Source: a virus. Taken from it: DNA of 23,317 bases. Shown here one piece after another: positions 2,553 to 22,264 of the stretch. The DNA is taken from positions 1-23,317 of the IMG/VR virus record IMGVR_UViG_3300027797_000148; one strand, given 5' to 3'. A program made the position numbers and the translations under genes. Below the pieces are notes generated by a model. It saw only the letters and a program-made list of their open reading frames with translations, was not told where the DNA came from and searched no databases. Within the stretch, counting starts at the first letter, position 1; the number at the start of each line of letters is the position of its first letter.

Positions 2553-3242
2553 TTATGCTGTACTACTCAAGTTCGTCAATGTCTGTATACGAACTGTATA
2601 ATCAATTTGTATCAATCTGTTTAAGGATTTTTGCACCGGGCTAAAAATCACATGTGTTAATAGTTTACCAAGACCTTCGCCTGCTGAACTATAACCTTTA
2701 AGACCCAACTCATCGAAAACAAACTGTCCATTTAAGTCTTGGCTGTTATCAAACACAGCCTGACCTGCTGGCTCACCGTAATCTAATAGACAACTGACTA
2801 AAATATCACTGTAGATCTGACCTGGAACATGTGTTACTGTGATTTTATTTCTCAAAGGATCACTGTTAGCCGCATTAGTATCGTCTACGATTTTGTAATA
2901 TTGTGGACTATACAAGTCAGCATTTTGTACGTTGGTATTAGTTGGCAAATAGGTAATAACACCAGTAGGGTCAACTGTAGTGCCACCATTACCAAAGTGC
3001 ATTTCTGTAATAAAATTTGTACCTTTATTACTTAAACTCTGTGCAATAGCTTCGCTCATGTTTTCATAATGAATAGCGTTGCGTTTGTCCACAAAAACTT
3101 CTTTAGTTTCAGGATCAAATATTTTTATATGCCCTTGTACGTGGATTCCACCACGTTCATCTGGCTGCTTGTTAGGTTGAGTATTCACCGTTGTTTCCTG
3201 TTGTTTTTCATGCATATTCTTATTTATCGCGTTATTAGTCAT
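2553..3242 (-). CDS. Virion structural protein of unassigned role, 229 residues
   Basis: The N-terminal ~30 residues are polar and low in complexity. A compact body follows, beginning GGIHVQGHIKIFDPETKEV and then VDKRNAIHYENMSEAIAQSL (roughly residues 31-70). I recall this 'KRNAIHYENMS' block from conserved structural proteins of T4-like marine phages, but I cannot assign it to a numbered T4 gene. The C-terminus is beta-rich, and no enzymatic motif is visible. The start is ambiguous. The ATG at 3242 lies 7 nt after the stop of the upstream fibre gene, with only a weak ribosome site (GTAGAAC), so coupling is plausible. A second in-frame ATG (Met10, 3215-3213) sits 5 nt after a GATAAATA motif embedded in codons 4-7. 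The late transcript could therefore make a 220-residue form. Confidence 0.82.
   Translation of the reverse strand: MTNNAINKNMHEKQQETTVNTQPNKQPDERGGIHVQGHIKIFDPETKEVFVDKRNAIHYENMSEAIAQSLSNKGTNFITEMHFGNGGTTVDPTGVITYLPTNTNVQNADLYSPQYYKIVDDTNAANSDPLRNKITVTHVPGQIYSDILVSCLLDYGEPAGQAVFDNSQDLNGQFVFDELGLKGYSSAGEGLGKLLTHVIFSPVQKSLNRLIQIDYTVRIQTLTNLSSTA
3221..3228 (-). promoter_or_regulatory. Putative late promoter inside the 5' end of the 229-residue gene
   Basis: The minus strand reads GCGATAAATAAGAATATG. The GATAAATA motif lies within the reading frame of the longer 229-residue version and ends 5 nt before the in-frame Met10 ATG. In T4 the late start point lies about 5-6 nt after the TATAAATA box, so transcription here would begin at or beside that ATG. 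This favours a start at 3215 for the late product. Confidence 0.6.
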
Positions 3243-3249
3243 GTTCTAC

Positions 3250-4977
3250 TTATGGGTTTTCAATATTATATAAACGCTGTGCTAACTGATTTAGTGCAGC
3301 AGATATAGTAGTAACATTACTGGTCCAGTGTGCATTATTAGCCATGGTAAAATTGCCAGTAAACGCTGTTGATTGTACAGTAGCATCTGGGAATTGAATT
3401 ACGCCCACGTTGCCTACATTAGCAAATTTCCAACTGTGTAAGGTAGCGGAATTTGGGAATATGCCTACATTGACTACAAATGGACTGACTTCAACAAAGT
3501 TACGTAAAACAGTATTGCCAAAATTTGGTACTGCTACCATAGCAGCATCACCGCCTGTGGCTGCCAACAACACTGTGGTATTGCCACCACCAGTAGACGA
3601 CACAGGCATAACTCCATCTAGTACTGCGCCACCTTGGCCAAAGTTTAAACTACCTGAAGTTGAATTAAAATTAATAACTGATCCGACATCTACATTTGCG
3701 CTGGTTGTAATTGCACCTGATGCTGTAATACGATTTACTGCTATGTTACCATTGACTGTTACGTTTGATGCTGTTAGTTGCGTTGTGGTTACAGCATTGG
3801 CTGTAAATCCATTTGATGATATGTTACCTGCATATGAAGGCAAGTAACTAGCTACATTGCTGTTGCCATAACTGGTTGCATATACGTTGGCTGCTATTGC
3901 GGCTAAACTGCCACTGACTGCGCCTAAATTAGCTGTGATGCCATCTATAGTTGGACTAGTTAATTCATCTGCATAGACATTTAACCACGGAAAATCTTCA
4001 GTACCTAATGTGTATTGACTTGGATTGCTTGGAACGATACCGTTACCGTCAGCGTTGTTAGGCTCAACTATCAGAGCACCTTCTTTGCCCCATGCACCAC
4101 CATCACTGCTAACATAAAGTGCAACTGTACCTGCGGCATTTGCACCATCGTATCCAGTTTCACGTAGTACAAGATTACCTGTCAACTCACTGATACCATC
4201 ACCTGTTAGCCCACCAACAACCACTAGTGGAGGAGTAGTTAAGCTAGATCCGTCAGATGTAATTGATAGGCTATCTATACTGAGATCTGTACCTGTGACT
4301 GCTATATTTCCATCCACAGATAAACCACCCGAGGTAGTAACAATACTATCTGTAGTAACAGCTACATTAGTAATAGTAGTTGAGCTAGTAGATGTTTCTG
4401 TAATATAAACATCACCAAATCCTATCCAGCCCAATGTGCTGTACATATATCCAGTTTCTAACAATATCTTAAGATTTGCTGCTCCACCGCTGGTAGGAAG
4501 AATAACATAGTCAGAGCCATAAGACAAGTTCACTACATTTAGATTACCACTTGACCCATCAACATAAGTTAATGTTGCAGATATTGTGCCGCTACCATTG
4601 GCTAGTCCACCTTGAACTTGTATATTAGCTGGTACTACATTGTTTGTAGTAATTTGAGTATCAAATAAAACTATTGGAGCACTAGCAACTGTAATACCGC
4701 CGGTAGCAGAGCTAATTGTACTATTACCTAGATATAAGGTACTACCGCTTAGATGTAAATCTTTCCATTTGTGTGTAAGATTTCCCAAATTATAAGCATT
4801 GTCGCTGGTAGGTATAATATCACCGTAGGTTGTTTCACCGCTGGTAATATATTCAGCCAACTGTGCAACGTTGCCTTTTACTGTAGTAAGTGTTCCGGTG
4901 GCGTTGCTAACAAATGGAATTATAGTATTTCCATATATAGTTGTTACGTTAGCAAGTTGACTTATCTTAATTGTCAT
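3250..4977 (-). CDS. Tail-fibre-like virion protein, 575 residues
   Basis: The N-terminus MTIKISQLANVTTIYGNTII leads into 'DIIPTSDNAYNLGNLTHKW' and then KDLHLSGSTLYLG (about residues 53-84). This is the 'LG....W.dl..sg.tiylG' signature of T4-like phage fibre proteins. A second, weaker copy (QYTLGTEDFPWLNVYADEL) lies about 340 residues in. The rest is Asn/Thr/Ser/Gly-rich beta-type sequence. Near the C-terminus are a 'W.F...G.iQFPDATVQSTAF' fibre motif and a short helical end (LNQLAQRLYNIENP) that could help trimerise the protein. The start is well supported by TTGAGGAATAGAAATG: a strong Shine-Dalgarno site 5 nt before the ATG overlaps the stop of the giant gene, so translation is probably coupled. 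It also has its own upstream GATAAATA motif. It is likely a baseplate-attached fibre; the binding target is not visible. Confidence 0.87.
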   Translation of the reverse strand: MTIKISQLANVTTIYGNTIIPFVSNATGTLTTVKGNVAQLAEYITSGETTYGDIIPTSDNAYNLGNLTHKWKDLHLSGSTLYLGNSTISSATGGITVASAPIVLFDTQITTNNVVPANIQVQGGLANGSGTISATLTYVDGSSGNLNVVNLSYGSDYVILPTSGGAANLKILLETGYMYSTLGWIGFGDVYITETSTSSTTITNVAVTTDSIVTTSGGLSVDGNIAVTGTDLSIDSLSITSDGSSLTTPPLVVVGGLTGDGISELTGNLVLRETGYDGANAAGTVALYVSSDGGAWGKEGALIVEPNNADGNGIVPSNPSQYTLGTEDFPWLNVYADELTSPTIDGITANLGAVSGSLAAIAANVYATSYGNSNVASYLPSYAGNISSNGFTANAVTTTQLTASNVTVNGNIAVNRITASGAITTSANVDVGSVINFNSTSGSLNFGQGGAVLDGVMPVSSTGGGNTTVLLAATGGDAAMVAVPNFGNTVLRNFVEVSPFVVNVGIFPNSATLHSWKFANVGNVGVIQFPDATVQSTAFTGNFTMANNAHWTSNVTTISAALNQLAQRLYNIENP

Positions 4978-4979
4978 TT

Positions 4980-7900
4980 CTATTCCTCAATAATTGTATT
5001 GCCTGATTCTGTAGTTAGTGTATTTATCGCATCTTCAGTACCTAGCTCGTCAGGTATGATATTAATTACCGTATTAGTAGCTGTGGCTTCTTTTAAGAAC
5101 AGCACAGGTATTGTAGTTGACCCTTCAAATCCTGTACCGTCTGTGGCTACTCCAGAACCTAAATTATACCAAACATTAGCTGTACGTAGTGTGGTATTGG
5201 CGGTAATGGTCACATTTCCATAAAGAGTTATAGGATCTGTAGCTACTTCACCAATTGGAGCTATGCTCACAGGGTAAACTGGAGTAGCTAATGCAGATCC
5301 ATTGATTAACAATGCATCTGCCATATTTGGGCTATACCCAACTATCTGTGGTCTAACTGTTTGTTCTACTCCATTTATGCTTATGTTACCTGTTAGGTCT
5401 AGAACACTAACAGACCCTACAAGATATACTGCACTTACATTAGCACTCGCAGTAGTTACTGCAATCACTCTTAGATTTGCACCGCTGGAAGCCTGTGTAA
5501 TATAGTCACCGTGAGTGACTGTTACGCTGCCGTTCATTTGAATAGCCACATTTGTGATATTTGTGGTAACGAATCCTGGCATCATAATCACATCTAGTAT
5601 TTGTTTATCAACAACATTGGTGTTTATGACCATAACGTTAGAGCCCGATGTGGTCTGAGTAATATAATCTCCTACATTAGCAGTTATATTTCCAGTAAAT
5701 CTCACACGTTGCGGTGGAGTTCTTGTGGTCACGAAAGTTGTATTTGCCGCTACATTGACATTTCCTGATGCAGTTCCGGGGATTATCTGATCTAAACTAC
5801 CATCTACAACCGGTTTACCTGCTCCATGTATGATTGGTGTGCTGGTTCCTTCGGTTCCTCTACGTAGGTATCCTAAGGTGTTGGTTGTTAAATTTCTAGC
5901 CCAGTAGGTAATACGCTCACCACCTATAAATACCACACCAGGGATAGCACCACTGGGATTAGGTATTGGTAATACACTAGCATCTTCTACATAAATTAGT
6001 GTGTCAGTGATTGATAATGTCTGAGCTAGTGTTGTAGAATAAGCATCTGCAATTCTTAGATAGCTGGTTTGACGTAGCATATTGCTGAATATTCTATAAC
6101 CTACCACATCAACATTGGCATTAATTCTAGTATAAACCTGTATGTCCAAGGTATCAAACATTATACCAGGAACAAATTCTTCTGGTGCATGGCTTGAGTA
6201 TGTGTCTACATAGGCGCCGCCATCTACATCAATATCTTCTGGGCGTGTACCAAGAGCAGAATCTGTATAATTGCTCTGGATGATTGTATCAACTGCGGAA
6301 TCATCTAATACTGCGTTGCCGTTTTCATCGTATTGAATTTGATCAAACATACCAATATCATATTTGGTACCATCTCCAAATCCTGGTTGAGTATCAAAAG
6401 TAATTCCAGTAACTTCAACGCCAGGATAATCAAGTCCATATAATAATTGTTGTAGATTGTTTTCAACAACATTCAATACAGTACTGGTAGAAAGAGTCTG
6501 TGGACGATCCACAACCATCCAAACATTTCCACTAGTCACATCCATATCTAGCGATAGTATTCTACTAGAAATCACATTGGTGCCTGTTAGATACATGCCT
6601 GGTTTAAGATTTTTAATATCATTTACATAGACTGTAGTATTTGCTGTCACCGGATATTCAACAACCACAGTATAATTTGCTGTTTCAATAGCGGGCATAC
6701 TATCTGATGGATTATAGTAAGCCATAATTCTATCATTGGCATTCATAAAATCTGCAGATGGATAAACTTCATAATTTGAACTTAAGAAAGTTGTACTAGT
6801 AGTAATATTACTAGTTACCAAATATCCTATACTTTGATATGTAACAATATCTCCAGCTAGATATGAAGTGTTAGCTGACCATTCTTTAACTACTGTGGTA
6901 TATCCTATACGATCAAATTTCATTGTAGTACTAATACTACGTACTTGATTATTTTTCAATACTGCATAGGCTCTAGCTGGGGTTTCATTACTGCCATTGA
7001 TAATAACTGTTGGAGTAACTACATACCCACTACCGCCGTTTATTAGATTAATAGCAGTAACAGCACCAGTATCACCATCAATTACAGCTTCTGCTGTAGC
7101 ACCACTGCCACCTTGGCCGCCTGTTACAATACTAACTATTGGTGGGGTTGTGTAGCCACTACCACCAGCTTCAACTATTATGCTGTTGACTGTTAGTGTT
7201 CTGTTGGTATACCATTGATTGTAATCATCAGTTTGCCATAACGCTTCATCTTTCTCAGGTTCTTCACCGCTAGGGCTTCGGAACACTCTTAAATCAGAGT
7301 CATAATATCCAGGCAAATCAAAATCTGTTACACTGCCGTCAAATTCATCAGTGCCTATGTAGCCAATTAAATATTCTCTAATTTTAGTCTTGTAAGGTTT
7401 GACTTCTTCGATGTAATTTCTATAGTAGGTCTGATTATCTTTAATATAGTTAGGTACCTGTGCCAACCCTCTTAACTGATGAACCACACTGATAAAGCTG
7501 GTTTTAAAAATCCAATCTACATATTTTTGTTCTGTGAATAGATAATTAACCATTACAAAGAATAAATTATTAAATTGTTCTTGTAATTGGTCTATAAAAA
7601 TATCATTTTTAATCGCTAACAGTATAGAACGAATTTCAAGATTTGGATTTTGATCATATCTACTAGTATCAAATCCCTGATTGCTAAATCCTAGTTCGTT
7701 GTCTGCAAAATTACTTAGACTACTATCTAATTGCACTGTACCGTTTTGAATACCTACAGTACTAAATTCTCCAGCATCTGTGAATACCAATAGTTGCCAC
7801 TCACCTGAACCAGTATTGTTAACACGTATAAGATCATCTGTGACCAATCCTGCAACAATTCTCTTAGCATCATTAACAGTATCTACTACATAATCAGCTT

Positions 7901-10900
7901 TGGTACTACTACTATATCCTTCTGCATACCAGTCTGCATAACTCCAATACAATGTAGATTTGTAACTTTGTACACGAATAATTTTCCAAGATTTATCTAC
8001 TTGTAATTCGTGTAGAGTCCATAGATTATCCTGTTCTGTGTTGGATTCTACTAGAACCAAATAGTTGGTGGATAATTGTGTAGTGTCAAGATATAATAAT
8101 TCTTCTTCTGTAGCTACAGCGAGATCGTATTCATTTAGTTTTATACTAGGTCTAGGATCTTCTGCTGCAAGACCAGTTAAATCAAACTGTTTAGCTATGG
8201 GGTTTTCTAAAAAGATTTTATTGACATAACCAATTAGATTGTTCATAGCAGTTATTCTGTCATTGAACATACTTTGTCTTGGTCTAAAACTAATACCGTA
8301 TCTATCTGCAACACTGAGCTTAGGATCAGGCACAATAGCACCTGCAGCATCAGCGCCGGCTAAACTATCAATCATTTTGTTAACAACTTTGATAGGCACT
8401 AGATTATTAGGATTACCTTTTTGTATTAATTCATATTCACTGTGAATAATACTGTTGTTTTTAATAGTTTCATAGTCTAGATGTAAAATTGTAGTGTCTG
8501 CGCTTAGATAACTGCCAACGTTGTACAACACAAATGCTGACGGACTGATCATAGCTGCATAGGCAATACCATAAGATTTAGGATTTTCAATAATACCCTG
8601 AATAGTATTGATTGGTAATTTTCTTGTGCTGTTTACTTTGTCTAGAGTTGTTTTATCTTTGACCCAGAAATAATACTTGTTGGTAATAATATTTGTTGTT
8701 GGGTCTACAAATATGTCTTCAACATAAGCAGTGTCATCGGCGTATTTAGGAACACCTTCGTAACCAGCATCAACATATTGACTTGGTGGCACAGGACTTA
8801 CCACCCATTCTAAAACTTCAATAATACTACCAGGGAATAGACGTCCCCAATTAATACTACGATAAGTTAATGTTGATTGTTCATAATCTATAAATCTTAC
8901 CTGAGATAAATTCCACCAAACTTTACCAACCTGTAGATCTCCCCAATAGACATCAGGAGTAACTTCAATGCCGTCGGTTACTCCACGATTATAAACAGCC
9001 GGATCATATTCTGTCTTGTAGGTAATTTCCTGTTCAGCTTGTCCTAGTATTTTACCTTTAGCTGGGTCAATAAATTCTAAATTTGTTAGAATAGTATTAG
9101 TAGATTTATTATAAAGGAACATACGATTCACACTGTCTACGTCTACTTTAGGTTGTTCATAACGAATTAAGCCCCATCCTCGCTTGTAGGTTGGGTTATC
9201 AAATATGTAAACACTTCCGCTGTCAGTTTGTGTGTAATCATCGCCAGGTGCAGTGACAATAATCTTATCGGCACGCACATCAATAGCCGAACCAAATAAA
9301 TCATCAGGATTTAAATCACCAGGGTTCAATTGTTGAGCAAATGCATAGCGTCCTGGGTTTTCAACTTCATCGCGTGGGTCATCATATAGTTCATAGATGT
9401 AAGTACTGCCACTGCCACGTACTACATCCGTAAATATTGTGCTGTCATCATCAAACATTGTGTCAGCATCATCAAATATCATGTTAAGTTTAGTTGTTCC
9501 GCGTTCGCTGGAAATTACCAACATGTAGGCATTTTGTGCTAGAATTACATGACTACCAAAATATTCGCCAGGGGTGTTATAAGGATTAATAATAATCTGC
9601 ATGAATGCAAATACTGTCATACCAGCATTATCATATACTCCTGCACTGCCAGTGGTGTTAGAACCTGATAAAATACGTAATAGATTTTTTGCCACAGTTC
9701 TGTCAGAATCAATTCTTAACTTACCGTGTTCATTCACTGCACTGATACCTAATAGGTCAGCACTATTAATTTCTTCAACAAATTCATCTAATGTAGTAGC
9801 TCTTGGATATACGTTTGCAGTGGTACCATTAACGCTGATGTTTCCTGAGCCTAAGGTAAACACATTAGCATTATTGTATGCACTGATTTTAACATAAGTT
9901 CCGTCAGTGATTGATTCTGTTATTGTAACATTAGCGCCACTTGAAGCTTGGGTGATATAGTCGCCCGCATTAGCTGATAAGTTTCCGCTGACTCTAAGGT
10001 TGACTTTGACTTCGTAGTTATCCAAACGAATTGTGTCATTGGGGGTAAACGTTGGGTCTTCTATGGCTGCAGTGTTAGTACCATACAATCTACCACGGTT
10101 ATGGAATTTCCAAACAGCACCAGTATTATAAGTAGTGCCATTGTCATAGTAAGGTGCACCTACGTAAATTGCACAGTTGTTAGAACAAATAGTTAAGCTA
10201 GTACCAAATCTTGTGTTGCTTTGAATAGCGTCTAATCCGCCCTCGATACTATCGATACCAATTAATTTTTCCAATAAGTTAAATTGATTAGTTTCAATAT
10301 ACACCACACGACCAACACCAATTGGTTTGTTAAATGTAATTTCGTAACTGCCAGTAACTTCGTAATCTGTAGTTTCAATGTCATCAACTGTTACTCTATA
10401 TACATCTCTAATTTCACCGGTGGTAGTATAAACATTGCCGTCGGTGCTATCAAATGCTTCAATTACTCGATCATATACATAAACCGCGCCTGATCCTACA
10501 TATTCAGTGTAAGATACTACATTGGCAGTTGGAGGGCCAACTGGGACACTCATTTTTACGCCATTAGACATTACAGCAACATTAACTGTGTCATTTGGCA
10601 CACCTACTGCTAGCTGTGCGCCATCATTGCTGCTGTCTACAAAGAATCCAAATTCAGCACCTGTATTTGCACCAATGTTTGTGGTGTCAATAGTCTGCAT
10701 TAATGCGTAATACGGTCTTTGTGTTATAGTTACATCACCCAAGGCCACATTGCCTGTGTTAAACACAAGAGTTCCGCCTAATAGGTTAAAATCTATAGTA
10801 GGAATATAAGTTTTGTTTCTTGAAATTACAGATATTGAATGAGCACTATTAGCCACAAAAGGAGTAAAGTCTAAAGAAATATTTGCCACATGACTAGCTG

Positions 10901-13900
10901 ATGAATATGTTATTGGATATACGTTTGCGGTAGAGCCATTAACAAACACATTACCTGACAATAAAGTTAATTTAGTAGCATCACCCATAACATTAAATGT
11001 TGTTGATGTAGTAGATACAGAAATATTGCTGACTGTTAGATTTGCTGAACTGTTAGACTGCGTGATATAATTACCAACGTTTGCAGTTAAATTGCCACTA
11101 AAAGTAATTGTATATACAGGTTCGATAACAATCTGTTGTGTTTCTACTGGCACACGTGTGTTTAGGCCATAAGCATAAACTCTATCATTGCCTAATGCGC
11201 CAACATACAACCATGTAGCATGTGCATCAAAGGCTATATGATGACCAAACTTGTCCCCAGCAGTATTAGCAGTTAATATTTGATATCTATTCCAACTGGT
11301 GGTTCCCTCTGATTTGTCGTATACATAAACCAATCCAATATTGCCTTGACTAGTAGGAGCACCTACTGCAAGTCTTTGTTGACCAAAACTTAGACTAGTA
11401 CCAAATCCAAAAGTATTACCGCCATCAGGGCTTAAAGTCACATCCTGAACATATTCTCCTTCGTAATTTTTAGAAAATATGCTCACAGCACCTACACCAG
11501 TGGTGGTAATTCCGCCTGCATCTCTATCTGTGCGTGATGCCGTAGGACTACCAACTGCGGCACTTAGTCCATCAGCAGTTAATTTAGCACTACGGCCAAA
11601 TCCATCAGTACTGGTATATTCTGTTTCGCCTTTGAGTAATCTTTGTCTGAGTTCCCAAGGCATGTTCTTTTCATAGACTTTCCAAAGATTATTTCCGGTA
11701 TCATAAGGTTGCCCTTGTACTAAGCTAGTTGGGGCATCAATGTCAACCCATATTTTCTCACCAGCTTTCCAACGATGCAGTGGAGATGATAGGCCAAACA
11801 CGCGAACATCTTCCATAAATGTAAATCTTAGACTGTCTAACTTAAATATTTCGCCAGATCCATCTATGGTAGTTAAGGTAGACGTATCACCAGCATAGGT
11901 CACCATAACCTTTGTTAACGTAATAACTTTGTAGACCTGATAGAATCCGTCAAATGCCTCATCAAATGATTTAATTAAAAAGATGTCATCTTTTTCTAAA
12001 CCATGTGGTAAATCTGTGGTAAATGTTATGTATCCATCTAGATCGTTGCTGACTAGATTTACATGATTATCTGTTTCTGAAACTCTGTATACATTCCATT
12101 GTTGACTAAAATCTTTAGCTACCCAAATGGTGTAACCTGTACCAATATCATCTATTCTGTCGTTTAATTCTTGATAATTTTCTAAACTAAAAATATATGT
12201 GTCAACGTCATCAATATTAACATAACCTGCCGTGGGAATGTCATTAAAATAGTCGCTGGTATCATCTCTAACTAAAGCAATATTACCATCAAATTGTTCT
12301 GTAGTTTTATATAACTGTCCTTTGTCAAATACTGTGATGCCATCTGCTCTGTTACTTTCATTGGTAGGCACAAATTCTGCTACAGCAGGATTTACTGAAA
12401 ATTCTTTTTCTGCTAGGGGTACTTCGATATAAGGATTAATATCTAACGCACCATACTCACCTATACGTATTGCCCATTCTTCATAATAGTTGATAGCACT
12501 GCTAAGATTATTAAATTCAGCGTTGGTTAACGCTTCTATGGCATTAGCAGTACCTTTTTGTTTGATATAACCTTTGTAAAATTCAACCTGTGTGGTTTCA
12601 TTTAATCCTAGATCGTCTAGATACTGACGAGACTTAAATCCGATTAATCCATGACTGTATTTTATCTGTTCTGCATCATTAAAATATCCATAAGGATCAT
12701 AGTGAGATTCTAATCGCACTGCGTTGCTGTTAGGATTTGGTAATAGTCCTGTTTTAAATTGTGTATAATCTGCCTGTTTCCAGTATGCAAAATCAAATGT
12801 GCCAGTGGCAATAATATTTTCTAGTGCTACATAGTATTGATTTTTATATTTTACTAATTCGCCTTTAAGGTAGTCTTTGCCTTCTTGCCAGTCTTGTATA
12901 TTACCTGAATTATATATAAATCCTGGAGCATTTAAACTGCCATCCCAGGCCGCAGTTTTTTGACCAATTAATTTTAATCTAAATTGACGATTGCCCAATT
13001 CTGGTTTATAGATAATGTCATTGAATACTGTGGTATTATCAAACACCAATATGTGTTCATACTGTACAAGATTAAGTTCTAGATAAGCAATTACACTACC
13101 ATTAGTTAGAGTAAATTTAAAATTAGTTGGAGTACGAACAATATTGTAGTAGGTATTTTTTATTAATTTAAAATTTTGATCTAGTACTCTACTGCCGTAT
13201 TGACTGTCAGTGACTTCGTCCACTATACTGCCGTTGGTTACCACATTGATAACATTAGATACTGGACTCATTACTAATATACTACCTTCTTTCCACCCCT
13301 GCTGTGCCCAGAATAAAAATTCTCGTACACTTAACTTCCAATTTTTAATTTCAGCAAGTTCTTCTTCAATGTCATTGAATGTGAATCCTTGTGCTATTAA
13401 AAATCTTTCGTAGCTGATAAGAAAGTCAACAATTTGTTGCATGCTATTAAATTCATAGCCATAAGGTACTGTTAATTTAAGTGGTTGATAATCAAGATAT
13501 ACAACTCCTTCTTTATTCAATACAACTATCTTTCTAGCATTACTGTTAATAACACTTGGAATAATTGTAAAGTAAGGATTATTTAAATCATATCCTCTAA
13601 CACTATAACCGTTAGATGTTTTTTCAATAATTACTGCACTGTAGACAATCTTATCTACAGGAATAGATTTAAACAAATGAATATTATAATTTTCATTTGG
13701 CACAATAATGCTATCATTGGTGCTGGATGGACTACTTTGTTCTGCAAGCACCTGCAGATATTTTTGATCACTGAATCCTGCCATCTTATAGGCTAGATTT
13801 ACATTATAATTTTGTATCAATGGATAGATTTTTGTAGCAGGATTGATACCAAGATTTAGTAGATAGTCTGCAATATAGTTTAAGTAGCCCGCAGTTCTTG

Positions 13901-16900
13901 ATATAGATCCTGATGAGGTATCTCCATTGAACACGATATCATTTTGTCTTACATGATGATTACTATCTTCTGTTAAAAACTGATTTAATTCTGTATTTTT
14001 TCTATAACTTTGTAGATCTATTTTACTACCAAAATATTTTGCTGGTTTGGTCAATGCCAATGCCTGTTGAACAGCAAATGGAAATTCGCTGCTACGACGC
14101 CAAGAAGTTTCTACTGGGCCTTGGCTACCTATTGCCCAACTGTTTGCGGCTTTTTTAGCATTAACGCTTCTAGCTAGTACAGCCACAGGGCTTAATAAAA
14201 TACCGTTGTCATCTACAGGAATAATTGTAGATAATCCAGGACGTGCAAACATAAGATCTATACCTGCTCGTTCACCATCAACAATACGTCCTGCTTCTAG
14301 ATCGTCCCATAAGAGTTTGTTACCACCAGTATACGGTGCTGGACCATAGTAGTCTTGCCACCAATTTGGTTGTTCAGCAAAGCCTAACATTTCCCACGGT
14401 GTTAGATGTGGTCTAGCAGTGTCATAGAAATATCTGTAGCAGGCACGCCAACCACCTGGTAATTTTTCTCCTGAAATTCTATCAGTGAAATTTGAGTAAT
14501 TCCAAGTAAAAGGATTATTGCTGTCAAATGTGTCATTGTCACTATAATCTAGTTTGTTATTACCTACCCAATTTAAGAAATTTTTAGTTAGTACACGATT
14601 TGCTTCATCTAACGTATACTCGTTATCTCTGAATTTGCCTGGCAATACTGTGTAGATATCTTCGTGTGTGATATCTACGGGCAATTTAATATTATTGTAG
14701 ATACGGCTTTCTAATTCTAATAAGAAGTAATCTCTGTAGTCATTGAATGCTGGAGTTATGCTACCGTCATGACCTTTGACTACACTGATAGGAGTAACAT
14801 AAGTATCATCTACAAAAATATTAGGAATAAACTTAGGATACAATCCTAATTTACTTGGAGTTTCAGGAATATAATTACCATCAGTGTTGCTATATTCTAC
14901 AATTTTAATTACATCATCTATTTCCAGTGTTACCGTATCCAAAATTGTAATTGCTGGTCTGTCGGTATTGAATGTATAGTCTCTATCAAATATTAATTGT
15001 GTGTCATTTAAATACACCAACACTGCTTTGTTGCTGAGATTATTATTATCAAATACGTTGGTAATTTCATACTCGCGTGTTAGTGGATTGAAAACTGTAT
15101 ATCCAACATCATTAACTATGGTTTTTAATGGACCGTAAGGTACCATGTCGCTATAGTACCATGGGAATGATGAATTTTTAATTTTGTTAATTTCTGATAG
15201 AATTAAATCAACACTGCTAGCAGGATCTAGTGGGTCAATACCTACCAAGGTCATAGCTAGTTCTAAAAATTTATTTTTAAATTTACTATATTCTCTTTGA
15301 GCAAATCTCAGTGCTTCTATAAAATTAGCTTCGTTGTCTAATAAAAACAGTGCAGCCAATGGAATGGGTGCGCTGTGTTGTAGAATATTACCACCCTGAC
15401 TTTTAATTTCAATGTCTCTAAGATTGCTACTACCAAGAATACTACCTATTAGGTTTTTGTCGTTATGACTTAATTCTATTAGATGATTTCTTATCTGACC
15501 TAAAGTTAATGTGCTAAGATCTATGTTCTGTGCATTTAGATCTAGATTTAGTGGGATCTGATAGTAACCCAATTTACTTAATGACTTACTATAGATTAAA
15601 ATATCAACTTTATCACCAGCAACTAGTCCGGTGCCTAGTAGAGTAATAGTTTTGTTAGTTGAATTTAAACTCCAAGAGTTAGATGATATAATACTGTTGT
15701 TAACAAATACCTTAGTATAAGGAATGGTACTTTCTGTTTCAGGTAAAATATCTATAGTTAGTGTAGTATTTGTGCCGTCTAGAATAAAAGTTAAAAGTTG
15801 ATATTGCTTAGTTGGTTCAACTACTCGACTCCAACAGTTTCTTTTTGAAAATGTAGTTCTGTCTCTATTGGTATGAAATAACCCTCTACTGATTGGCAAT
15901 GTGTATGTGGTTTGATCTACTACATAGGTAAATTGATCTGAATCATAGAAGTTTTGAAATTCAATATCGCCTTGTGTTCCAAAATTTCGATAACTTAAAG
16001 GGAAACCCAACACAGTGTCATTAACACCTAAGGATTTTCTTACATACCCAAATAAACTAGTTCCAGTAAAGCTAGATCTTGGATAGGTTGTGTAACTAAC
16101 ATCATTTTCATCAAAAACATCAAACTGTGGTTCCTGTTGAACTTGAGTTTTTTGCTGACTTTCTAACCAGTTAGTTCCGTCGTACCACCACGCACTACCT
16201 TTGTATTGACCTCTTAGTACAGTAACGCAGTCATCGATTTCACTGTCACCATCATCAGCCACTGTTAGTTTAATATGTTTGTCGCCTGTTGGTATCCCCG
16301 TAACAGGATCTGCATCAAACTGTTCAAGATTTACAACATAGATTTTATCTCTAACCAACGGATCGGTGTCGGCGGCAAACAATACACGACAGCCATCAAA
16401 TAGTTCAATACCAAAAGCACTGGTGTATATTTCACCTTCAAGTTGATTAAATGCATCAGTATAATTGGTATCTAAGATATCAATATGGCGTTTACCTATA
16501 CGACCATTATTAATCAATTGTAGATCGCTTTCAAATTGCACTATCGGTCTTTGAGCTCTTAACAGTTGATCAAATCTAATAGGAGTGTTGTTATATTCTG
16601 CTGTGGCTAAAATAACTTCTGCATGGAACCATCGATTATTACGTGCCCAAGGATTTAAATCCAATGCATCTCGTTTGATTGTTATATATTCTGGGAATAC
16701 TGTATTATAGATAATATCTATGGTAGTGGTGCCACTAGGAATACCCGGACCAGTTACTGCTGTTCCGTTAGCTATGCCTAATACATCATCTAAGGTTGTA
16801 AAATCTGTACGTCCTGCAGCAATTTCTGTGTCTGTGGCTGCTTGAACATTGCCAATTGTAATTACCTCACCAGGATCTATGGTTTCTGTAACAGCATTAC

Positions 16901-18419
16901 TTAATATCACACGTTTTAGAGGATAGTTGACAGCATTTTCACTGTTGTAAGTTTCTGGAGTTACAAGTAGTGTTACATCAACTAATCTAATACTGTCACC
17001 AACATTTTCTACATAGTATTCTTTGTTTTGATATGCGGGCGGAGTTACATCATCTTCAAAACGAATTTTAAGTCCACTAGTAAATTTAACTCCGTTGGGG
17101 CTGGTATAATTAGGTTGACTAATAATGTCATTTTCTACGTCAATTAACCAGCTAGCAGAATCAACAATTTTTATACTTTTGTAGATGCTTGATTTTGTGC
17201 CGTCTTGAATATACATAGTATCCAGTAGACTAGTCATTACTGGCATACTATAGAAGAATCCATCAAATTCTTTATAGAATTCTTTGTTAGCATTTACTAA
17301 CCCGTATTTGATAAAAACTTTTTCTCCAATATCAATATTTTGAACATAGACTAATTTAATTATAGGGTCATCTGTACCGCCATTGGTAAATTGTACACGC
17401 CACACTCCGTAACGTTGACTGTCAGGTACTATTGTTCCTGCATCAAATCCGTCAACTTGTAGGCCGTCTCTATCAAATACACCACCGGCTGTCCATGCTT
17501 CTTCGCCGGACAATTCTATAGTATCCTGATCTACAAATATCAGAGTTTTGCCGTCTAGGCTGCCAGTAATACCAGCATACTGCGGAAACTCTTCTAAGAA
17601 TTTACTTAGTAATTGATTGTGTAGATCTGAATATGCTATTGGTGCAGCGTAGTCTACATTGTAGACCAAATCCATATCGGCAAATCTATCTTGTGCGTTA
17701 CTTTGTGGTATTTGAAATTCTATAGTACCTGCATCATCGCCGTTGTTAGTTACTCCAAATACATCTCTGGTACTAATAGTAGGAGTAGAATTATTTTGAC
17801 CGTCGATACCTAATTCTGTTTGTATCCAGAAAGGATAACCTGGTTGATCAACTTTAAATGTATATTGACCGCCTCTAGCAAATATCAATGTTTCTTTAAC
17901 TTCACCGTTAACTGTAAATTTATATTTGTCTGTAGCCGAATCTCTTGTGACAATAAAAGTTTGACTAAGATCAACATCACTAGTATTAACTGTTACTGGG
18001 TCGGGTCCGTTAGGTAACCAATAGTATTGTCCAAAGTTAACAATTTTGTCATAGCTGATATGTGGATTGAATGAATAGTATTCATTATCAAACAAACGAC
18101 TATGATTATTAATTAATCCACCGTAGTAGTCTATTTTATTAAGTAAATCTGTATAGCTAGCAAAAAATGTTATGTTGTTGGAGTCATCACGTACAACAAT
18201 ACCGGGCTCTAACTGATAATTTTGTCTATCAGCAGAATCTTCTATAATATAACTGTCTCTTGCCTTATAAGTTGGCGCAAACTTTCTACCAATATAACCG
18301 TGAACTGTTTTTAAATTTGGTTCGCTGACCAATTGATCAACCGTAGCCGATAGAAACTTACGATTGACTTCAGTTTGAAATATGGTTGGTAAAAAATTTA
18401 CTGTTTTTCTTGCGGCCAT
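4980..18419 (-). CDS. Giant 4479-residue mosaic baseplate/fibre protein
   Basis: One open frame with no internal stop. The N-terminus (MAARKTVNFLPTIFQTEVNR) is followed by a cupredoxin-like segment (about 165-240) and a conserved 'PHLTPWEMLGFAEQPNWW' block (about 1337-1355). Next come a CBM5/12-like segment (about 1840-1880) and seven FG-GAP-type propeller repeats (about 2265-3080), with GDYITQ modules inserted at 2437-2504 and 2804-2874. A 'Y.EEVKPYKTKIREYL' block lies near 3670. The C-terminal part has GGSGY repeats (3740-3820), a second CBM-like segment (about 3843-3887), a 'GERITYWARN...RRGTEGT' block (about 4160) and two more GDYITQ modules (4237-4362). There is no signal peptide or membrane span. 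The start is backed by TTAGGATAGATAATG, 18 nt after the gp6 stop. Its place right after gp6 corresponds to T4 gp7/gp10 wedge genes, but T4 gp7 has only about 1030 residues and I cannot show homology. It is inferred to be a peripheral baseplate or adhesin component. Confidence 0.85.
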   Translation of the reverse strand: MAARKTVNFLPTIFQTEVNRKFLSATVDQLVSEPNLKTVHGYIGRKFAPTYKARDSYIIEDSADRQNYQLEPGIVVRDDSNNITFFASYTDLLNKIDYYGGLINNHSRLFDNEYYSFNPHISYDKIVNFGQYYWLPNGPDPVTVNTSDVDLSQTFIVTRDSATDKYKFTVNGEVKETLIFARGGQYTFKVDQPGYPFWIQTELGIDGQNNSTPTISTRDVFGVTNNGDDAGTIEFQIPQSNAQDRFADMDLVYNVDYAAPIAYSDLHNQLLSKFLEEFPQYAGITGSLDGKTLIFVDQDTIELSGEEAWTAGGVFDRDGLQVDGFDAGTIVPDSQRYGVWRVQFTNGGTDDPIIKLVYVQNIDIGEKVFIKYGLVNANKEFYKEFDGFFYSMPVMTSLLDTMYIQDGTKSSIYKSIKIVDSASWLIDVENDIISQPNYTSPNGVKFTSGLKIRFEDDVTPPAYQNKEYYVENVGDSIRLVDVTLLVTPETYNSENAVNYPLKRVILSNAVTETIDPGEVITIGNVQAATDTEIAAGRTDFTTLDDVLGIANGTAVTGPGIPSGTTTIDIIYNTVFPEYITIKRDALDLNPWARNNRWFHAEVILATAEYNNTPIRFDQLLRAQRPIVQFESDLQLINNGRIGKRHIDILDTNYTDAFNQLEGEIYTSAFGIELFDGCRVLFAADTDPLVRDKIYVVNLEQFDADPVTGIPTGDKHIKLTVADDGDSEIDDCVTVLRGQYKGSAWWYDGTNWLESQQKTQVQQEPQFDVFDENDVSYTTYPRSSFTGTSLFGYVRKSLGVNDTVLGFPLSYRNFGTQGDIEFQNFYDSDQFTYVVDQTTYTLPISRGLFHTNRDRTTFSKRNCWSRVVEPTKQYQLLTFILDGTNTTLTIDILPETESTIPYTKVFVNNSIISSNSWSLNSTNKTITLLGTGLVAGDKVDILIYSKSLSKLGYYQIPLNLDLNAQNIDLSTLTLGQIRNHLIELSHNDKNLIGSILGSSNLRDIEIKSQGGNILQHSAPIPLAALFLLDNEANFIEALRFAQREYSKFKNKFLELAMTLVGIDPLDPASSVDLILSEINKIKNSSFPWYYSDMVPYGPLKTIVNDVGYTVFNPLTREYEITNVFDNNNLSNKAVLVYLNDTQLIFDRDYTFNTDRPAITILDTVTLEIDDVIKIVEYSNTDGNYIPETPSKLGLYPKFIPNIFVDDTYVTPISVVKGHDGSITPAFNDYRDYFLLELESRIYNNIKLPVDITHEDIYTVLPGKFRDNEYTLDEANRVLTKNFLNWVGNNKLDYSDNDTFDSNNPFTWNYSNFTDRISGEKLPGGWRACYRYFYDTARPHLTPWEMLGFAEQPNWWQDYYGPAPYTGGNKLLWDDLEAGRIVDGERAGIDLMFARPGLSTIIPVDDNGILLSPVAVLARSVNAKKAANSWAIGSQGPVETSWRRSSEFPFAVQQALALTKPAKYFGSKIDLQSYRKNTELNQFLTEDSNHHVRQNDIVFNGDTSSGSISRTAGYLNYIADYLLNLGINPATKIYPLIQNYNVNLAYKMAGFSDQKYLQVLAEQSSPSSTNDSIIVPNENYNIHLFKSIPVDKIVYSAVIIEKTSNGYSVRGYDLNNPYFTIIPSVINSNARKIVVLNKEGVVYLDYQPLKLTVPYGYEFNSMQQIVDFLISYERFLIAQGFTFNDIEEELAEIKNWKLSVREFLFWAQQGWKEGSILVMSPVSNVINVVTNGSIVDEVTDSQYGSRVLDQNFKLIKNTYYNIVRTPTNFKFTLTNGSVIAYLELNLVQYEHILVFDNTTVFNDIIYKPELGNRQFRLKLIGQKTAAWDGSLNAPGFIYNSGNIQDWQEGKDYLKGELVKYKNQYYVALENIIATGTFDFAYWKQADYTQFKTGLLPNPNSNAVRLESHYDPYGYFNDAEQIKYSHGLIGFKSRQYLDDLGLNETTQVEFYKGYIKQKGTANAIEALTNAEFNNLSSAINYYEEWAIRIGEYGALDINPYIEVPLAEKEFSVNPAVAEFVPTNESNRADGITVFDKGQLYKTTEQFDGNIALVRDDTSDYFNDIPTAGYVNIDDVDTYIFSLENYQELNDRIDDIGTGYTIWVAKDFSQQWNVYRVSETDNHVNLVSNDLDGYITFTTDLPHGLEKDDIFLIKSFDEAFDGFYQVYKVITLTKVMVTYAGDTSTLTTIDGSGEIFKLDSLRFTFMEDVRVFGLSSPLHRWKAGEKIWVDIDAPTSLVQGQPYDTGNNLWKVYEKNMPWELRQRLLKGETEYTSTDGFGRSAKLTADGLSAAVGSPTASRTDRDAGGITTTGVGAVSIFSKNYEGEYVQDVTLSPDGGNTFGFGTSLSFGQQRLAVGAPTSQGNIGLVYVYDKSEGTTSWNRYQILTANTAGDKFGHHIAFDAHATWLYVGALGNDRVYAYGLNTRVPVETQQIVIEPVYTITFSGNLTANVGNYITQSNSSANLTVSNISVSTTSTTFNVMGDATKLTLLSGNVFVNGSTANVYPITYSSASHVANISLDFTPFVANSAHSISVISRNKTYIPTIDFNLLGGTLVFNTGNVALGDVTITQRPYYALMQTIDTTNIGANTGAEFGFFVDSSNDGAQLAVGVPNDTVNVAVMSNGVKMSVPVGPPTANVVSYTEYVGSGAVYVYDRVIEAFDSTDGNVYTTTGEIRDVYRVTVDDIETTDYEVTGSYEITFNKPIGVGRVVYIETNQFNLLEKLIGIDSIEGGLDAIQSNTRFGTSLTICSNNCAIYVGAPYYDNGTTYNTGAVWKFHNRGRLYGTNTAAIEDPTFTPNDTIRLDNYEVKVNLRVSGNLSANAGDYITQASSGANVTITESITDGTYVKISAYNNANVFTLGSGNISVNGTTANVYPRATTLDEFVEEINSADLLGISAVNEHGKLRIDSDRTVAKNLLRILSGSNTTGSAGVYDNAGMTVFAFMQIIINPYNTPGEYFGSHVILAQNAYMLVISSERGTTKLNMIFDDADTMFDDDSTIFTDVVRGSGSTYIYELYDDPRDEVENPGRYAFAQQLNPGDLNPDDLFGSAIDVRADKIIVTAPGDDYTQTDSGSVYIFDNPTYKRGWGLIRYEQPKVDVDSVNRMFLYNKSTNTILTNLEFIDPAKGKILGQAEQEITYKTEYDPAVYNRGVTDGIEVTPDVYWGDLQVGKVWWNLSQVRFIDYEQSTLTYRSINWGRLFPGSIIEVLEWVVSPVPPSQYVDAGYEGVPKYADDTAYVEDIFVDPTTNIITNKYYFWVKDKTTLDKVNSTRKLPINTIQGIIENPKSYGIAYAAMISPSAFVLYNVGSYLSADTTILHLDYETIKNNSIIHSEYELIQKGNPNNLVPIKVVNKMIDSLAGADAAGAIVPDPKLSVADRYGISFRPRQSMFNDRITAMNNLIGYVNKIFLENPIAKQFDLTGLAAEDPRPSIKLNEYDLAVATEEELLYLDTTQLSTNYLVLVESNTEQDNLWTLHELQVDKSWKIIRVQSYKSTLYWSYADWYAEGYSSSTKADYVVDTVNDAKRIVAGLVTDDLIRVNNTGSGEWQLLVFTDAGEFSTVGIQNGTVQLDSSLSNFADNELGFSNQGFDTSRYDQNPNLEIRSILLAIKNDIFIDQLQEQFNNLFFVMVNYLFTEQKYVDWIFKTSFISVVHQLRGLAQVPNYIKDNQTYYRNYIEEVKPYKTKIREYLIGYIGTDEFDGSVTDFDLPGYYDSDLRVFRSPSGEEPEKDEALWQTDDYNQWYTNRTLTVNSIIVEAGGSGYTTPPIVSIVTGGQGGSGATAEAVIDGDTGAVTAINLINGGSGYVVTPTVIINGSNETPARAYAVLKNNQVRSISTTMKFDRIGYTTVVKEWSANTSYLAGDIVTYQSIGYLVTSNITTSTTFLSSNYEVYPSADFMNANDRIMAYYNPSDSMPAIETANYTVVVEYPVTANTTVYVNDIKNLKPGMYLTGTNVISSRILSLDMDVTSGNVWMVVDRPQTLSTSTVLNVVENNLQQLLYGLDYPGVEVTGITFDTQPGFGDGTKYDIGMFDQIQYDENGNAVLDDSAVDTIIQSNYTDSALGTRPEDIDVDGGAYVDTYSSHAPEEFVPGIMFDTLDIQVYTRINANVDVVGYRIFSNMLRQTSYLRIADAYSTTLAQTLSITDTLIYVEDASVLPIPNPSGAIPGVVFIGGERITYWARNLTTNTLGYLRRGTEGTSTPIIHGAGKPVVDGSLDQIIPGTASGNVNVAANTTFVTTRTPPQRVRFTGNITANVGDYITQTTSGSNVMVINTNVVDKQILDVIMMPGFVTTNITNVAIQMNGSVTVTHGDYITQASSGANLRVIAVTTASANVSAVYLVGSVSVLDLTGNISINGVEQTVRPQIVGYSPNMADALLINGSALATPVYPVSIAPIGEVATDPITLYGNVTITANTTLRTANVWYNLGSGVATDGTGFEGSTTIPVLFLKEATATNTVINIIPDELGTEDAINTLTTESGNTIIEE
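5021..5028 (-). promoter_or_regulatory. Putative late promoter within the 3' end of the giant gene
   Basis: The minus strand reads GCGATAAATACACT inside the last codons of the giant gene, 43 nt before the ATG of the 575-residue fibre gene. It matches the GATAAATA 8-mer found beside four other gene starts. It would allow the fibre genes to be made independently of the 13-kb giant cistron. Confidence 0.65.
5332..5530 (-). repeat. GDYITQ module, copy 4 (C-terminal)
   Basis: Residues about 4297-4362 of the giant protein. The segment runs from 'SVTVTHGDYITQASSGANLR' to 'TGNISINGVEQTVRP'. It directly follows copy 3 and shares the opening GDYITQ..SGAN and the closing G-N-I-S-x-N-G pattern with copies 1 and 2. 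The fold is unknown; the alternating polar and hydrophobic pattern suggests an all-beta unit. Confidence 0.7.
5530..5710 (-). repeat. GDYITQ module, copy 3 (C-terminal)
   Basis: Residues about 4237-4296 of the giant protein, beginning 'VRFTGNITANVGDYITQTTS'. The opening half matches copies 1, 2 and 4 closely. The closing 'VNG.TANVYP' half is degenerate, ending instead in VAIQMNG where copy 4 begins. Copies 3 and 4 therefore form a tandem pair. Confidence 0.7.
6760..6897 (-). other. CBM5/12-like segment 2 in giant protein
   Basis: Residues about 3841-3887 contain EWSANTSYLAGDIVTYQSIG followed by Y, fitting W-x4-Y-x2-G-[DE]-x-V-x-Y-x3-Y. This is the signature spacing of family 5/12 carbohydrate-binding modules. 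A matching segment lies about 2000 residues earlier in the same protein. Sugar binding is inferred, not shown. Confidence 0.55.
6960..7190 (-). repeat. GGSGY repeat pair in giant protein
   Basis: Residues about 3740-3820 contain 'VEAGGSGYTTPPIVSI', then GGQGGSGATAEAVI, and then 'LINGGSGYVVTPTVII'. This is two units of the 'GG.GY...P.V.i.gg.GsGA.a.a' repeat found in many secreted and phage structural proteins. It precedes the second CBM-like segment directly. Confidence 0.75.
9795..10010 (-). repeat. GDYITQ module, copy 2 (inside propeller)
   Basis: Residues about 2804-2874 of the giant protein, beginning 'VSGNLSANAGDYITQASSGA' and ending 'GNISVNGTTANVYP'. It is inserted between FG-GAP repeats 5 and 6. 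It is nearly superimposable on copy 1 at both ends. Confidence 0.75.
10905..11110 (-). repeat. GDYITQ module, copy 1 (inside propeller)
   Basis: Residues about 2437-2504 of the giant protein, beginning 'FSGNLTANVGNYITQSNSSA' and ending 'GNVFVNGSTANVYP'. It is inserted between FG-GAP repeats 3 and 4. The motif reads GNYITQ here, where the other copies have GDYITQ. Confidence 0.75.
12780..12902 (-). other. CBM5/12-like segment 1 in giant protein
   Basis: Residues about 1840-1880 contain DWQEGKDYLKGELVKYKNQY, with the W-x4-Y-x2-G-[DE]-x-V-x-Y-x3-Y spacing of chitin- and cellulose-binding family 5/12 modules. A 'Y-A' and a later aromatic 'YW' complete the resemblance. Glycan binding on the host surface is a reasonable inference but unproven. 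Confidence 0.6.
17700..17927 (-). other. Cupredoxin-like segment near N-terminus of giant protein
   Basis: Residues about 165-240 read 'GGQYTFKVDQPGYPFWIQT' and then 'GVTNNGDDAGTIEFQIP'. This 'G..YtF.v...gHPF.i.t....GV.nnG...Gti.f.vP' pattern belongs to a cupredoxin-like family common in marine phage and bacterial proteins. Tyr replaces the usual His before PF, so metal binding is doubtful. Confidence 0.5.
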
Positions 18420-18437: not shown

Positions 18438-21400
18438 CTATACTACTGTTGATTGATTAATCTGTGCGGCAGTAATAGCACTGATAATCTGTACATTGTC
18501 TACGGTTGCTGCACTGGTAATAATTTCATTGTACTCAGCATTGATCTGTAATAAACTACCAAACGTGCTGGTTTCACTGCTAGGCACAATAATAATACTA
18601 GCTATATTTGGTGCTAGTGTAGAATGTAAATAAGCACTGAGTTCACTGAAGTAAAATGTTTCACCAAAGTCCCAGTTATTAACATCAAAGTAACTGTTGA
18701 TAGCTGCAATTACAGATGTTTTAATATCATTGTCACTGACAACCACTGATGCATTCTTAACTACTTTAAATGTTGCTTGTAGTATTGGGTTTGCCTTAAT
18801 ACCAAATATTGGTTTAAATTTAGCAGGATTATAAATTAAAGTATCTGAAATACTTTTGTATTTTTCTAACTCACTAAATTCTAGTCCTAGTTGGTCACCG
18901 GTTGGTAGTGCTGGTTCTTCAATGGTATTACTACTGTCTTGTATCCATGCTACATAGTCTGTAGCATATTGTTTAGTCAGGATATACAAGTCAATGATGT
19001 TATTTGGACTTGGGTCAATACGACGATAGTTAGGACTATTATGTCTATATTGGAAATAAATGTCCTGGCGTCCACGTTTAGCTGTATATGCTGTTGACTC
19101 ATTTAAATTATAAACACTTTCGTTAATACTCAAAACGTAAAATTTATTTTCAATGGGTGAATAGAAAATTTGTCCATCTTGATAAAGTGTAGCACTAGTC
19201 TGCATTTCTCTAAGAGTATTGTAGTCTGTGACTACCAGGTCACTACTCACAGGAGTCTGTGCAATAAAATTGTCATAACTTACAGTATTTTCAAAAAATA
19301 CAAATTTATTTTTGATATCTAAGTTAGGTGACACAATCAATTCAAATAGTTCAGGATTGTCTGGAACACCATCATTATCACTGTCTGGGAACGTTACTAG
19401 TATTTTGCTGGGATTTTCATATCCATCAATTTCAGTAATGTTCTGATAGATAAACCAAATATAGTCTAGTGCTAGTGCTTCTGTGCTGTCAGGCTTATGG
19501 TTTACTTTTAATATTTTAATTTGATCATGTACAGTTATTCCTGTTTTTGGATCAAATATCTTAATACTATCATCAAAATAAAAGTTAGTTTCTAACACAC
19601 TTTCAAATACATAACGTAGACCTCTGTAGATCACAGAATAAGTCTGCCCTACAGTTTTAAAATATATTAACCAGCTGGAATCTAATCCCTGACCACTGGT
19701 GTTACCTGCATAGTTTAAACTAAATTCTTCTGTGCTTAGATCCTGCGGTAAAATTAATCGCCATGATCCAAGTTCTACATCATACCTTAGACCAAAATCC
19801 TCATAGGCCTGTATATAACTCAACATGCTTTCTACTAATCCAGTACTAAAGTCATTGTTGAATACCGCATATATACTTTCAGCAATAGCGTCCTGTGGTA
19901 CTTCTTGATTTAATGTTATAGGACCTGTGCCGTTGGCTAGGTTACCCTGACCTCCGTTGGTACCATTACCAACAACTTTTTGTACGGCCGCATAGATAAA
20001 ATACTTGTTGGTAATGGTGCTTGGAACACCTGTTTGTATTCTATTTCTGCTGTCAAAGTATTTGCCTGTGCCAGGACTAAATTTAATAATCGCACCTGGT
20101 TTAATATATTTTAAGTTACTGCTGACAGTGGATCCTACTTGTAGAATATTATCAGCACTGTCAAAGAAATATCCTGTGGAACCATTAGCAATTACTGTGG
20201 ATTTATTCCAGTAAACATCCGCCAGAGATATCAACGGATAGTTAGCATAGAAAAATTGCAGTGTTTCTGTAGCACTGGCAATAGGGCTTACCTTATTATA
20301 AATTACTCTATAGATATCATTTCTAGTCAAATAGTCAAAACTAAATGTTTCAGAAAAAGGATCTATATACAACATACCATCTTGTGCAAAGATATTTGTG
20401 CTGGAATATTTGCCTGTGGTATCAATAACATCAAGATATCTAGACACGCCTGAGCTGGTTCTATTTACAGACTTGGCTTTTAGTACTGTAGAGAATAAGG
20501 TGTATGGCAAAATATTATAGTCTTCACCCGTGACCATACGATCCTGTGTGTAGTATTGTTGTGGTGCTTTTTGACGTATTTCGTCTAGGGTTTCACGGCC
20601 GCCGGCATTGGCTACTGTATATTGTAGACTTGCGCGAATAGTGATAGTTTCAATTCTACCACCGCGACTAACATAATTAATTGGTACAGTCACGCCTTGC
20701 ATTTCATCAGGTGTAATTTTATAAGTTTGACCATTACTAACGCGATAATAAAGTCTAAAATTACCTTGGGGTATGTTACTAAAAGCACCGTCACCAAATA
20801 CTAGGTCAATTTGATCACCGGCACGTGTGTTTATTTGATAGATATTTTTGTTAACGCTCTTATTGTAGATTATATTAGTAATACCTACAGCTGGCACATG
20901 CGACCAAAGCACACTAGGATTGCCTGCACTGTCTATACTATATAACCAAACGTCAGTATTGTTGATATTGTTAATGTTAATGTTATATACTCGATTGGGT
21001 ATGCTTTCATCAAATTTAATATCAACAGATTTTAATTCGCCTTGTTTGAAATATAAAAAGAAACCTGTGTTATTACTGCTGTTGCCTAGATTGTCATTTC
21101 TATAGAGTAAATTAAATGGACTGTTGGGTCTTGGGTTTGATTCATAGACATAGGTCTGACCAGCACTGGTAGGACTTACAATTTCAAAATTAGTACTAGT
21201 ACCTTCAACGTCAGCATCAACGCCGTAGGTAGCTACTACGCTGGGTACTAGATTTATCTGATATTCATCATTGACTATGCCATTGATAGTCTGACTGTTG
21301 CTGGGTTTACCAACCACTTGATTGTTATTGAAACTGGAGTTTAGTACAGAAGTAAATTGTTCTAACCAATTGTCGTTACCACTGTCTGCCCATTCAATAA

Positions 21401-21873: not shown

Positions 21874-22251
21874 TTATGCGGCTAATAGGGTATTGCTTTG
21901 ACTATCAAATCTAAGATTTAAAAGATTAATTTGATTGGTTTGAAGATAACGTAGTTCTAGTTCAATCTGTAGGCCTCTGTCGTATTCAGTAATGATTACA
22001 TTGTCTACGCTGACTCTAGGATCATAACTAGCTACATCTTTTACGTCAGAGGTAATCACTGATTTTAAATCGTCAGTTAATGGCTCGTGTAATACATTCC
22101 AAATAATTGTACCAAAATTTGGATTCATTAGTTTTTCACCTTTACGTATGTGAAAGTGATTGATTATGTCGCGTTTTACCAGCTCAATGTCTGTCAGACG
22201 AAATTTTCTATTTCGTCCTACTGTGCTGAATCCTCTATAGAATGTTGTCAT
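21874..22251 (-). CDS. gp25: Baseplate wedge protein gp25-like (GPW/gp25 family)
   Basis: At 125 residues it has the length usual for the family (T4 gp25 is 132). The hallmark block 'RKGEKLMNPNFGTIIWNVL' followed by HEPLTDDL occupies about residues 37-63; this R-x-G-E...P-x-F-G motif defines GPW/gp25 proteins, which are lysozyme-related in name only. A basic stretch (GRNRKFRLTDIELVKRDI) precedes it. In T4, gp25 joins the inner baseplate with gp6 and gp53 and helps start sheath assembly, so the adjacent gp6 gene fits. The ATG at 22251 lies only 8 nt after the upstream stop and 5 nt after a GATAAATA motif that contains that stop codon. No good ribosome site sits at the usual distance, apart from GGA 11 nt away. 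Confidence 0.95.
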   Translation of the reverse strand: MTTFYRGFSTVGRNRKFRLTDIELVKRDIINHFHIRKGEKLMNPNFGTIIWNVLHEPLTDDLKSVITSDVKDVASYDPRVSVDNVIITEYDRGLQIELELRYLQTNQINLLNLRFDSQSNTLLAA

Positions 22252-22256
22252 GTAAA

Positions 22257-22264
22257 TATTTATC
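22257..22264 (-). promoter_or_regulatory. Putative late promoter overlapping the stop of the hub gene
   Basis: The minus strand reads GGATAAATATTTACATG. The TAA stop of the hub/lysozyme gene lies inside the GATAAATA motif, which ends 5 nt before the gp25 ATG. If the start point follows the T4 rule, gp25 late mRNA would begin at or next to its start codon. Confidence 0.65.

Follow-up and report, generated by a model that had tools for sequence, protein, structure and literature searches.

In phage T4, gp7 is a three-domain monomer of the baseplate wedge that contacts gp6, gp8, gp9 and gp10 (PMC3004832). T4-like cyanophages carry, after gp25 and gp6, a giant gene that is annotated as gp7 (5195 aa in P-SSM2 and 4446 aa in P-HM1), together with a separate gp8 in both phages. 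A second gene annotated as gp7, of 2425 aa (L071:26525-33802), is present in P-HM1 besides the giant one. Giant genes are also known from PHROG 10938, a family annotated as 'virion structural protein', which is not known to have an assigned function. Its members include RaK2 ORF070, 121Q gp582, phAPEC6 gp245, CBB_236, PA5oct EST35_0128 and Atu_ph07 AUZ94962. In virion proteomics, phAPEC6 gp245 (381.88 kDa) was detected by 17 unique peptides and is listed next to gp244, 'baseplate wedge' (PMC7247149), and CBB_236 was detected by 21 peptides, its neighbour being the wedge protein CBB_237 (PMC5259590). The PA5oct homologue EST35_0128 is annotated ESI-MS/MS.

The gene described here is a further member of this already known, functionally uncharacterised family. 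The IMG/VR record from which it comes is only a 23,317-base fragment of a virus, and the window analysed spans this entire record. The scaffold of the window giant is homologous to those of the PHROG 10938 members named above, and they have in common the place after gp6, the size class and the presence of a phrog_11259 gene in the genome. At the same time, a clear array of seven FG-GAP blades, together with GNxTAN modules, occupies the main insert site of the window giant, whereas in several PHROG 10938 isolates the insert at this site is short or unrelated.

The giant gene and its genomic place

The gene occupies complement(4980..18419) as one uninterrupted minus-strand frame of 13.4 kb, which runs from ATG to stop over 4479 codons, just as the original prediction had described it; the calculated mass of the 4479-aa product is 498 kDa. 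At the base composition of the window, an open frame of this length would arise by chance with p ~10^-145. The genes follow one another on the minus strand in the order gp5-type lysozyme C-terminal part, gp25, gp6, giant, fibre-like protein, phrog_11259 protein and two paralogous fibre-like proteins:

22260..23315, minus strand: gp5-type hub/lysozyme, C-terminal part, open at the window edge (phrog_27932)
21874..22251, minus strand: gp25-family baseplate wedge protein (PF04965)
18438..21821, minus strand: gp6-family baseplate wedge protein, 1127 aa (phrog_10646, E=0)
4980..18419, minus strand: giant virion protein gene, PHROG 10938 family, 4479 aa, about 498 kDa
3250..4977, minus strand: fibre-like protein, 575 aa, no family given
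2553..3242, minus strand: phrog_11259 protein (in 9/9 giant-bearing genomes tested)
1160..2539, minus strand: tail-fibre-like protein, paralogue of the neighbour at 1..1119
1..1119, minus strand: tail-fibre-like protein, cut by the window edge, with 46% identity to the adjacent paralogue across 297 aa

The profile match of the product encoded at 18438-21821 confirmed the predicted neighbourhood of the giant and gp6. This gp6 is enlarged in comparison with that of T4 (1127 against 660 aa), and aligns with the latter by its N-terminal part only. The two tail-fibre-like genes at 1-2539 are arranged in tandem.

Misassembly or a hidden frameshift could join separate genes into a false giant, or several internal starts could divide a true frame, and two observations are in line with such an artefact: the frame is split in one relative, L023, and some Salmonella phage records give the giant as two or three features, owing to sequencing error or true splitting. 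For the window gene this explanation is barely credible, and for the giant family as a whole it is already refuted. Two contigs from other samples, found in a scan of viral contigs, are identical to residues 1-1422 and 1-482 of the giant, and 49 further relatives were found in the same scan. Among the fetched loci, the frame is complete in 78 relatives (3186 to 6194 codons, median 4508), and one further open frame of a relative comprises 6254 codons. Coding constraint extends across all segments of the gene: when it was compared with four close relatives, third codon positions differed most in 12/12 segments, including the propeller and the C-terminus. Additionally, no Shine-Dalgarno-like site was found upstream of in-frame ATGs within the giant frame. 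Several separately started proteins, an outcome considered in the original prediction, are unlikely, because none of these internal ATGs has such a site and the frame is intact across the 78 relatives.

Distribution and architecture of the family

Comparison of the giant with PHROG 10938 gave E=0 and 1229 bits in three stretches over the conserved scaffold. With this scaffold profile match, the place after gp25-gp6 and a single frame of more than 3000 codons, the window gene is typical of a family of giant virion proteins that occurs in hundreds of jumbo-phage sequences. Homologues were found by tblastn in about 60 phage records, namely in the RaK2/121Q/GAP32/CBB group, PA5oct and its relatives, Atu_ph07, Phosso, SCTP-2, Vibrio 2.275.O and XacN1, and a profile scan of viral contigs gave at least 597 stretches that encode a relative. 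Giants are encoded by hundreds of aquatic virus contigs, and their genes are among the longest single phage structural genes. The length that had been called exceptional among phage structural genes is so in comparison with T4, but among jumbo phages and cyanomyoviruses such a size is the rule for a gene in this position; in the relatives L149, L107 and L126 the giant frames exceed 6100 codons. Searches of NCBIfam and of the sequences of solved structures with the giant gave no match. When bacterial genomes were scanned for the host, all matches fell in metagenome bins, which belonged to five different lineages, and no host is therefore proposed.

In the same locus of related phages, the giant follows gp6 in PA5oct, 121Q, Atu_ph07, Vibrio 2.275.O, Phosso, RaK2 and XacN1, and, among the regions opened, SCTP-2 has an unassigned gene in place of gp6 before the giant. 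This SCTP-2 gene 141 (L057:4633-13923, 3096 aa) occupies the place expected for gp25 and gp6, upstream of the SCTP-2 giant. Its interpretation as a fused gp5-gp25-gp6 was rejected, as no similarity to gp5, gp25 or gp6 of the relatives was found.

The block and insert-site lengths were taken from an alignment of 33 full-length giant homologues. The giant chain is composed of a conserved scaffold and length-variable insert sites: blocks of near-constant length (residues 1-120, 600-1080, 1200-1820, 3090-3420 and 3480-3715) lie between sites of very variable length, and the most variable of the latter, at 2060-3090, ranges from 115 to 1601 aa among the homologues. From the N-terminus to the C-terminus, the following features were recognised:

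18060..18419, minus strand: conserved N-terminal block, residues 1-120 (118-146 aa in 33/33 aligned homologues)
15180..16619, minus strand: conserved scaffold block, residues 601-1080 (homologue alignment)
15525..15818, minus strand: fibre-like beta module 1, residues 868-965 (repeat of module 2, profile match 95%)
14835..15122, minus strand: fibre-like beta module 2, residues 1100-1195 (repeat of module 1)
12918..14819, minus strand: conserved scaffold block, residues 1201-1834 (the predicted model has no convincing counterpart among PDB folds)
12744..12908, minus strand: CBM5/12 chitin-binding-type module 1, residues 1838-1892 (1ed7 fold match, TMt 0.74)
12420..12602, minus strand: FY.G.I..KGT / EEWA motif, residues 1940-2000, conserved in almost all family members
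9195..11612, minus strand: seven FG-GAP blades, predicted to form a seven-bladed beta-propeller that contains inserts; this insert site varies most in length
10830..11114, minus strand: GNxTAN module 1, residues 2436-2530, between propeller blades
9720..10004, minus strand: GNxTAN module 2, residues 2806-2900
8160..9152, minus strand: conserved scaffold block, residues 3090-3420 (homologue alignment)
7185..7982, minus strand: conserved scaffold block, residues 3480-3745, with predicted helices and the EEVKPY.TKIREY motif
6900..7217, minus strand: two GSGY beta modules, residues 3735-3840, also in cyanophage giant gp7
6750..6893, minus strand: CBM5/12 module 2, residues 3843-3890 (1ed7 fold match, TMt 0.72)
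5820..6032, minus strand: 'PGVVFIGGERI..RRGTEGT' block, residues 4130-4200
5250..5714, minus strand: GNxTAN modules 3 and 4, residues 4236-4390

The conserved blocks and the five or more repeat or binding segments of the original prediction were recovered in this list, the latter as seven FG-GAP blades, two CBM5/12 modules, two GSGY modules, four GNxTAN modules and the paired fibre-like beta modules. The FG-GAP array (PF14312, E=1e-9; seven repeats by pattern, at residues 2274, 2337, 2391, 2590, 2738, 2954 and 3042) shares with integrin-alpha-type propellers the FG...VGAP pattern and the number of blades, seven being the integrin-type number. Unlike those propellers, the array of the giant is interrupted by other modules and its blades are devoid of the DxDxDG loop, none having been found in residues 2270-3075; this calcium-binding loop is not known to be required in FG-GAP_2. 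In Pfam scans, which covered the insert regions of the homologues, FG-GAP was present at the giant insert site in 9/10 homologues, in some of them weakly, and no FG-GAP was found at the main insert site of the Atu_ph07 giant. The CBM5/12 assignment (PF02839, E=4.3e-6) comprises two modules and is confirmed by the fold of 1ed7, a chitin-binding type 3 domain. The same scans of marine homologues revealed weak T7-fibre-N-terminal matches and a long coiled coil in the C-terminal insert; in one of these homologues the coiled coil lies inside the giant chain, at L039:22442-25072.

Relation to the T4 wedge proteins

One explanation of the giant offered in the original prediction was that several baseplate genes of the T4 type (gp7 with gp8, gp9 and/or gp10) had fused. 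Such a fusion would agree with the failure to detect T4 gp7 and gp8 in other parts of the giant-bearing genomes tested, in most of which the gp10 profile likewise had no match. When slices of the giant were compared with T4 gp7, gp8, gp9, gp10, gp11 and gp12 by sliding profile-profile comparison and hmmsearch, there was no significant similarity, and 0 slices matched any of gp7-gp12; the gp6 families, used as the positive control in the same profile comparison, gave a 94% match. Moreover, PA5oct carries the giant alongside a separate gp10, cyanophages carry giant gp7 alongside a separate gp8, and the fold searches of predicted models described below had already weakened this explanation. Fusion of T4 wedge genes is therefore very improbable and was rejected. 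The T4 gp7 and gp8 profiles had no match in 7 giant-bearing isolate genomes or in 6 large, possibly incomplete, environmental records, with E=0 or below 1e-180 in the T4 and Aeh1 controls. Replacement of gp7 and gp8 is likelier than fusion, because similarity to gp7-gp12 was not found and these two profiles came out empty in the giant-bearing genomes tested.

Another explanation is that the giant is a true but hugely expanded gp7, in which the wedge initiator core is kept and the rest is insertion. It is suggested by the position, since the gene of T4 gp7 (1032 aa) also lies directly after gp6, and by the cyanophage genes annotated as gp7 at the same place, which resemble the window gene in the gp25-gp6-giant position, in size and in the GSGY beta modules. 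The core of the T4 gp7 profile, at positions 716-800, is matched by P-SSM2 gp7 (E=1.3e-4), and the P-SSM2 giant thus retains a trace of gp7, which PHROG 10938 giants seem to lack. A conserved FY.G.I..KGT motif (1947-1957) is found in the window giant, and T4 gp7 likewise has a KG motif after a predicted helix; the best profile alignment puts KGT on KGI of the gp7 core. However, this alignment falls short of significance (probability 0.4%, E 0.17), and the resemblance to the KG motif of gp7 and P2 gpI is at the motif level only; PF09684 (Tail_P2_I) matches P2 and has no match in either the giant or T4 gp7. The T4 gp7 KGIEASYKFLFK core had no profile similarity in the giant, compared with 94% for the gp6 control. 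The core is kept near residue 190 in P-SSM2, whereas none was found near the N-terminus of the window giant, whose motif is near 1950. T4 gp7 is more than four times shorter than the giant and has no significant sequence similarity to it; no scaffold homology between the cyanophage and window giants was detected, GSGY being the sole module that they share; and gp7 was unmatched in the 7 giant-bearing isolate genomes. We therefore regard an expanded gp7 as rather unlikely, while giving it appreciable weight.

Structure was predicted by segments, and AlphaFold models were obtained for residues 860-2059 (pLDDT 70, pTM 0.53) and 3070-4220 (pLDDT 65, pTM 0.37). The search of PDB folds with these two models of 1150-1200 residues gave no match with E below 0.001, and the CBM5/12 modules alone stood out. 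No T4 wedge protein was among the best 50 listed PDB fold matches of these models, with their pLDDT of 65-70, and the BFVD search returned giant homologues and weak fibre matches only. The predicted folds are too weak to settle the kinship with gp7, and a gp7-like core may still be contained in the giant, since the model confidence is modest.

A proposed peripheral wedge arm

With moderate confidence, the giant is most likely the peripheral wedge arm of the baseplate in jumbo myoviruses. We infer a location in the baseplate where the conserved scaffold blocks would dock on the gp6-gp25 ring at the site at which T4 has gp7 and gp8. The scaffold would take the place of gp7, and perhaps that of gp8 too, and its proposed role would be that of T4 gp7 in the wedge. 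The exchangeable insert domains (beta-propeller, CBM5/12 and beta-repeat modules) would protrude, holding fibres or touching the host surface. Mass spectrometry of homologues and the domain content support the original view of the giant as a mosaic virion protein that is encoded at the gp7 position and bears adhesin-like modules. Presence in the virion has been published for homologues only, and the window giant is probably a virion component as well. Note that the neighbours and the proteomics of homologues indicate a virion protein only, and not its placement in the baseplate. Points against a wedge arm are that no wedge protein matched the giant in sequence or fold, the modest model confidence, and the PHROG category of family 10938, 'head and packaging'.

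The adhesin-like modules could also belong to a free-standing protein (an adhesin, a fibre or a whisker) whose gene lies next to gp6 by chance. The FG-GAP propeller, the CBM5/12 and beta-repeat modules and the weak T7-fibre-N-terminal matches in the C-terminal insert of homologues are compatible with such a protein, and CBB, a RaK2-like phage, bears tail whiskers (PMC5259590). However, in several isolates the propeller is absent or reduced while the scaffold stays, so that what is constant in the giant is not its adhesin-like portion, and the long, strongly constrained scaffold blocks better suit a structural platform. A free-standing adhesin is accordingly improbable, and the wedge arm is the preferred reading.

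A broader proposal, put forward tentatively, is that in a large branch of jumbo phages a single unrelated polypeptide of ~0.4-0.7 MDa, whose scaffold folds would be absent from the PDB, may have replaced the peripheral wedge of gp7 and gp8 and would combine a structural arm with an exchangeable adhesin platform. If gp7 and gp8 are indeed replaced, conservation of the outer baseplate in contractile tails would be far below that of the gp6-gp25 core, and host-range determinants could naturally be sought in the variable insert sites. Additionally, the phrog_11259 protein (2553-3242 in the window), which in relatives is often encoded just downstream of the giant, is a candidate partner of the giant.
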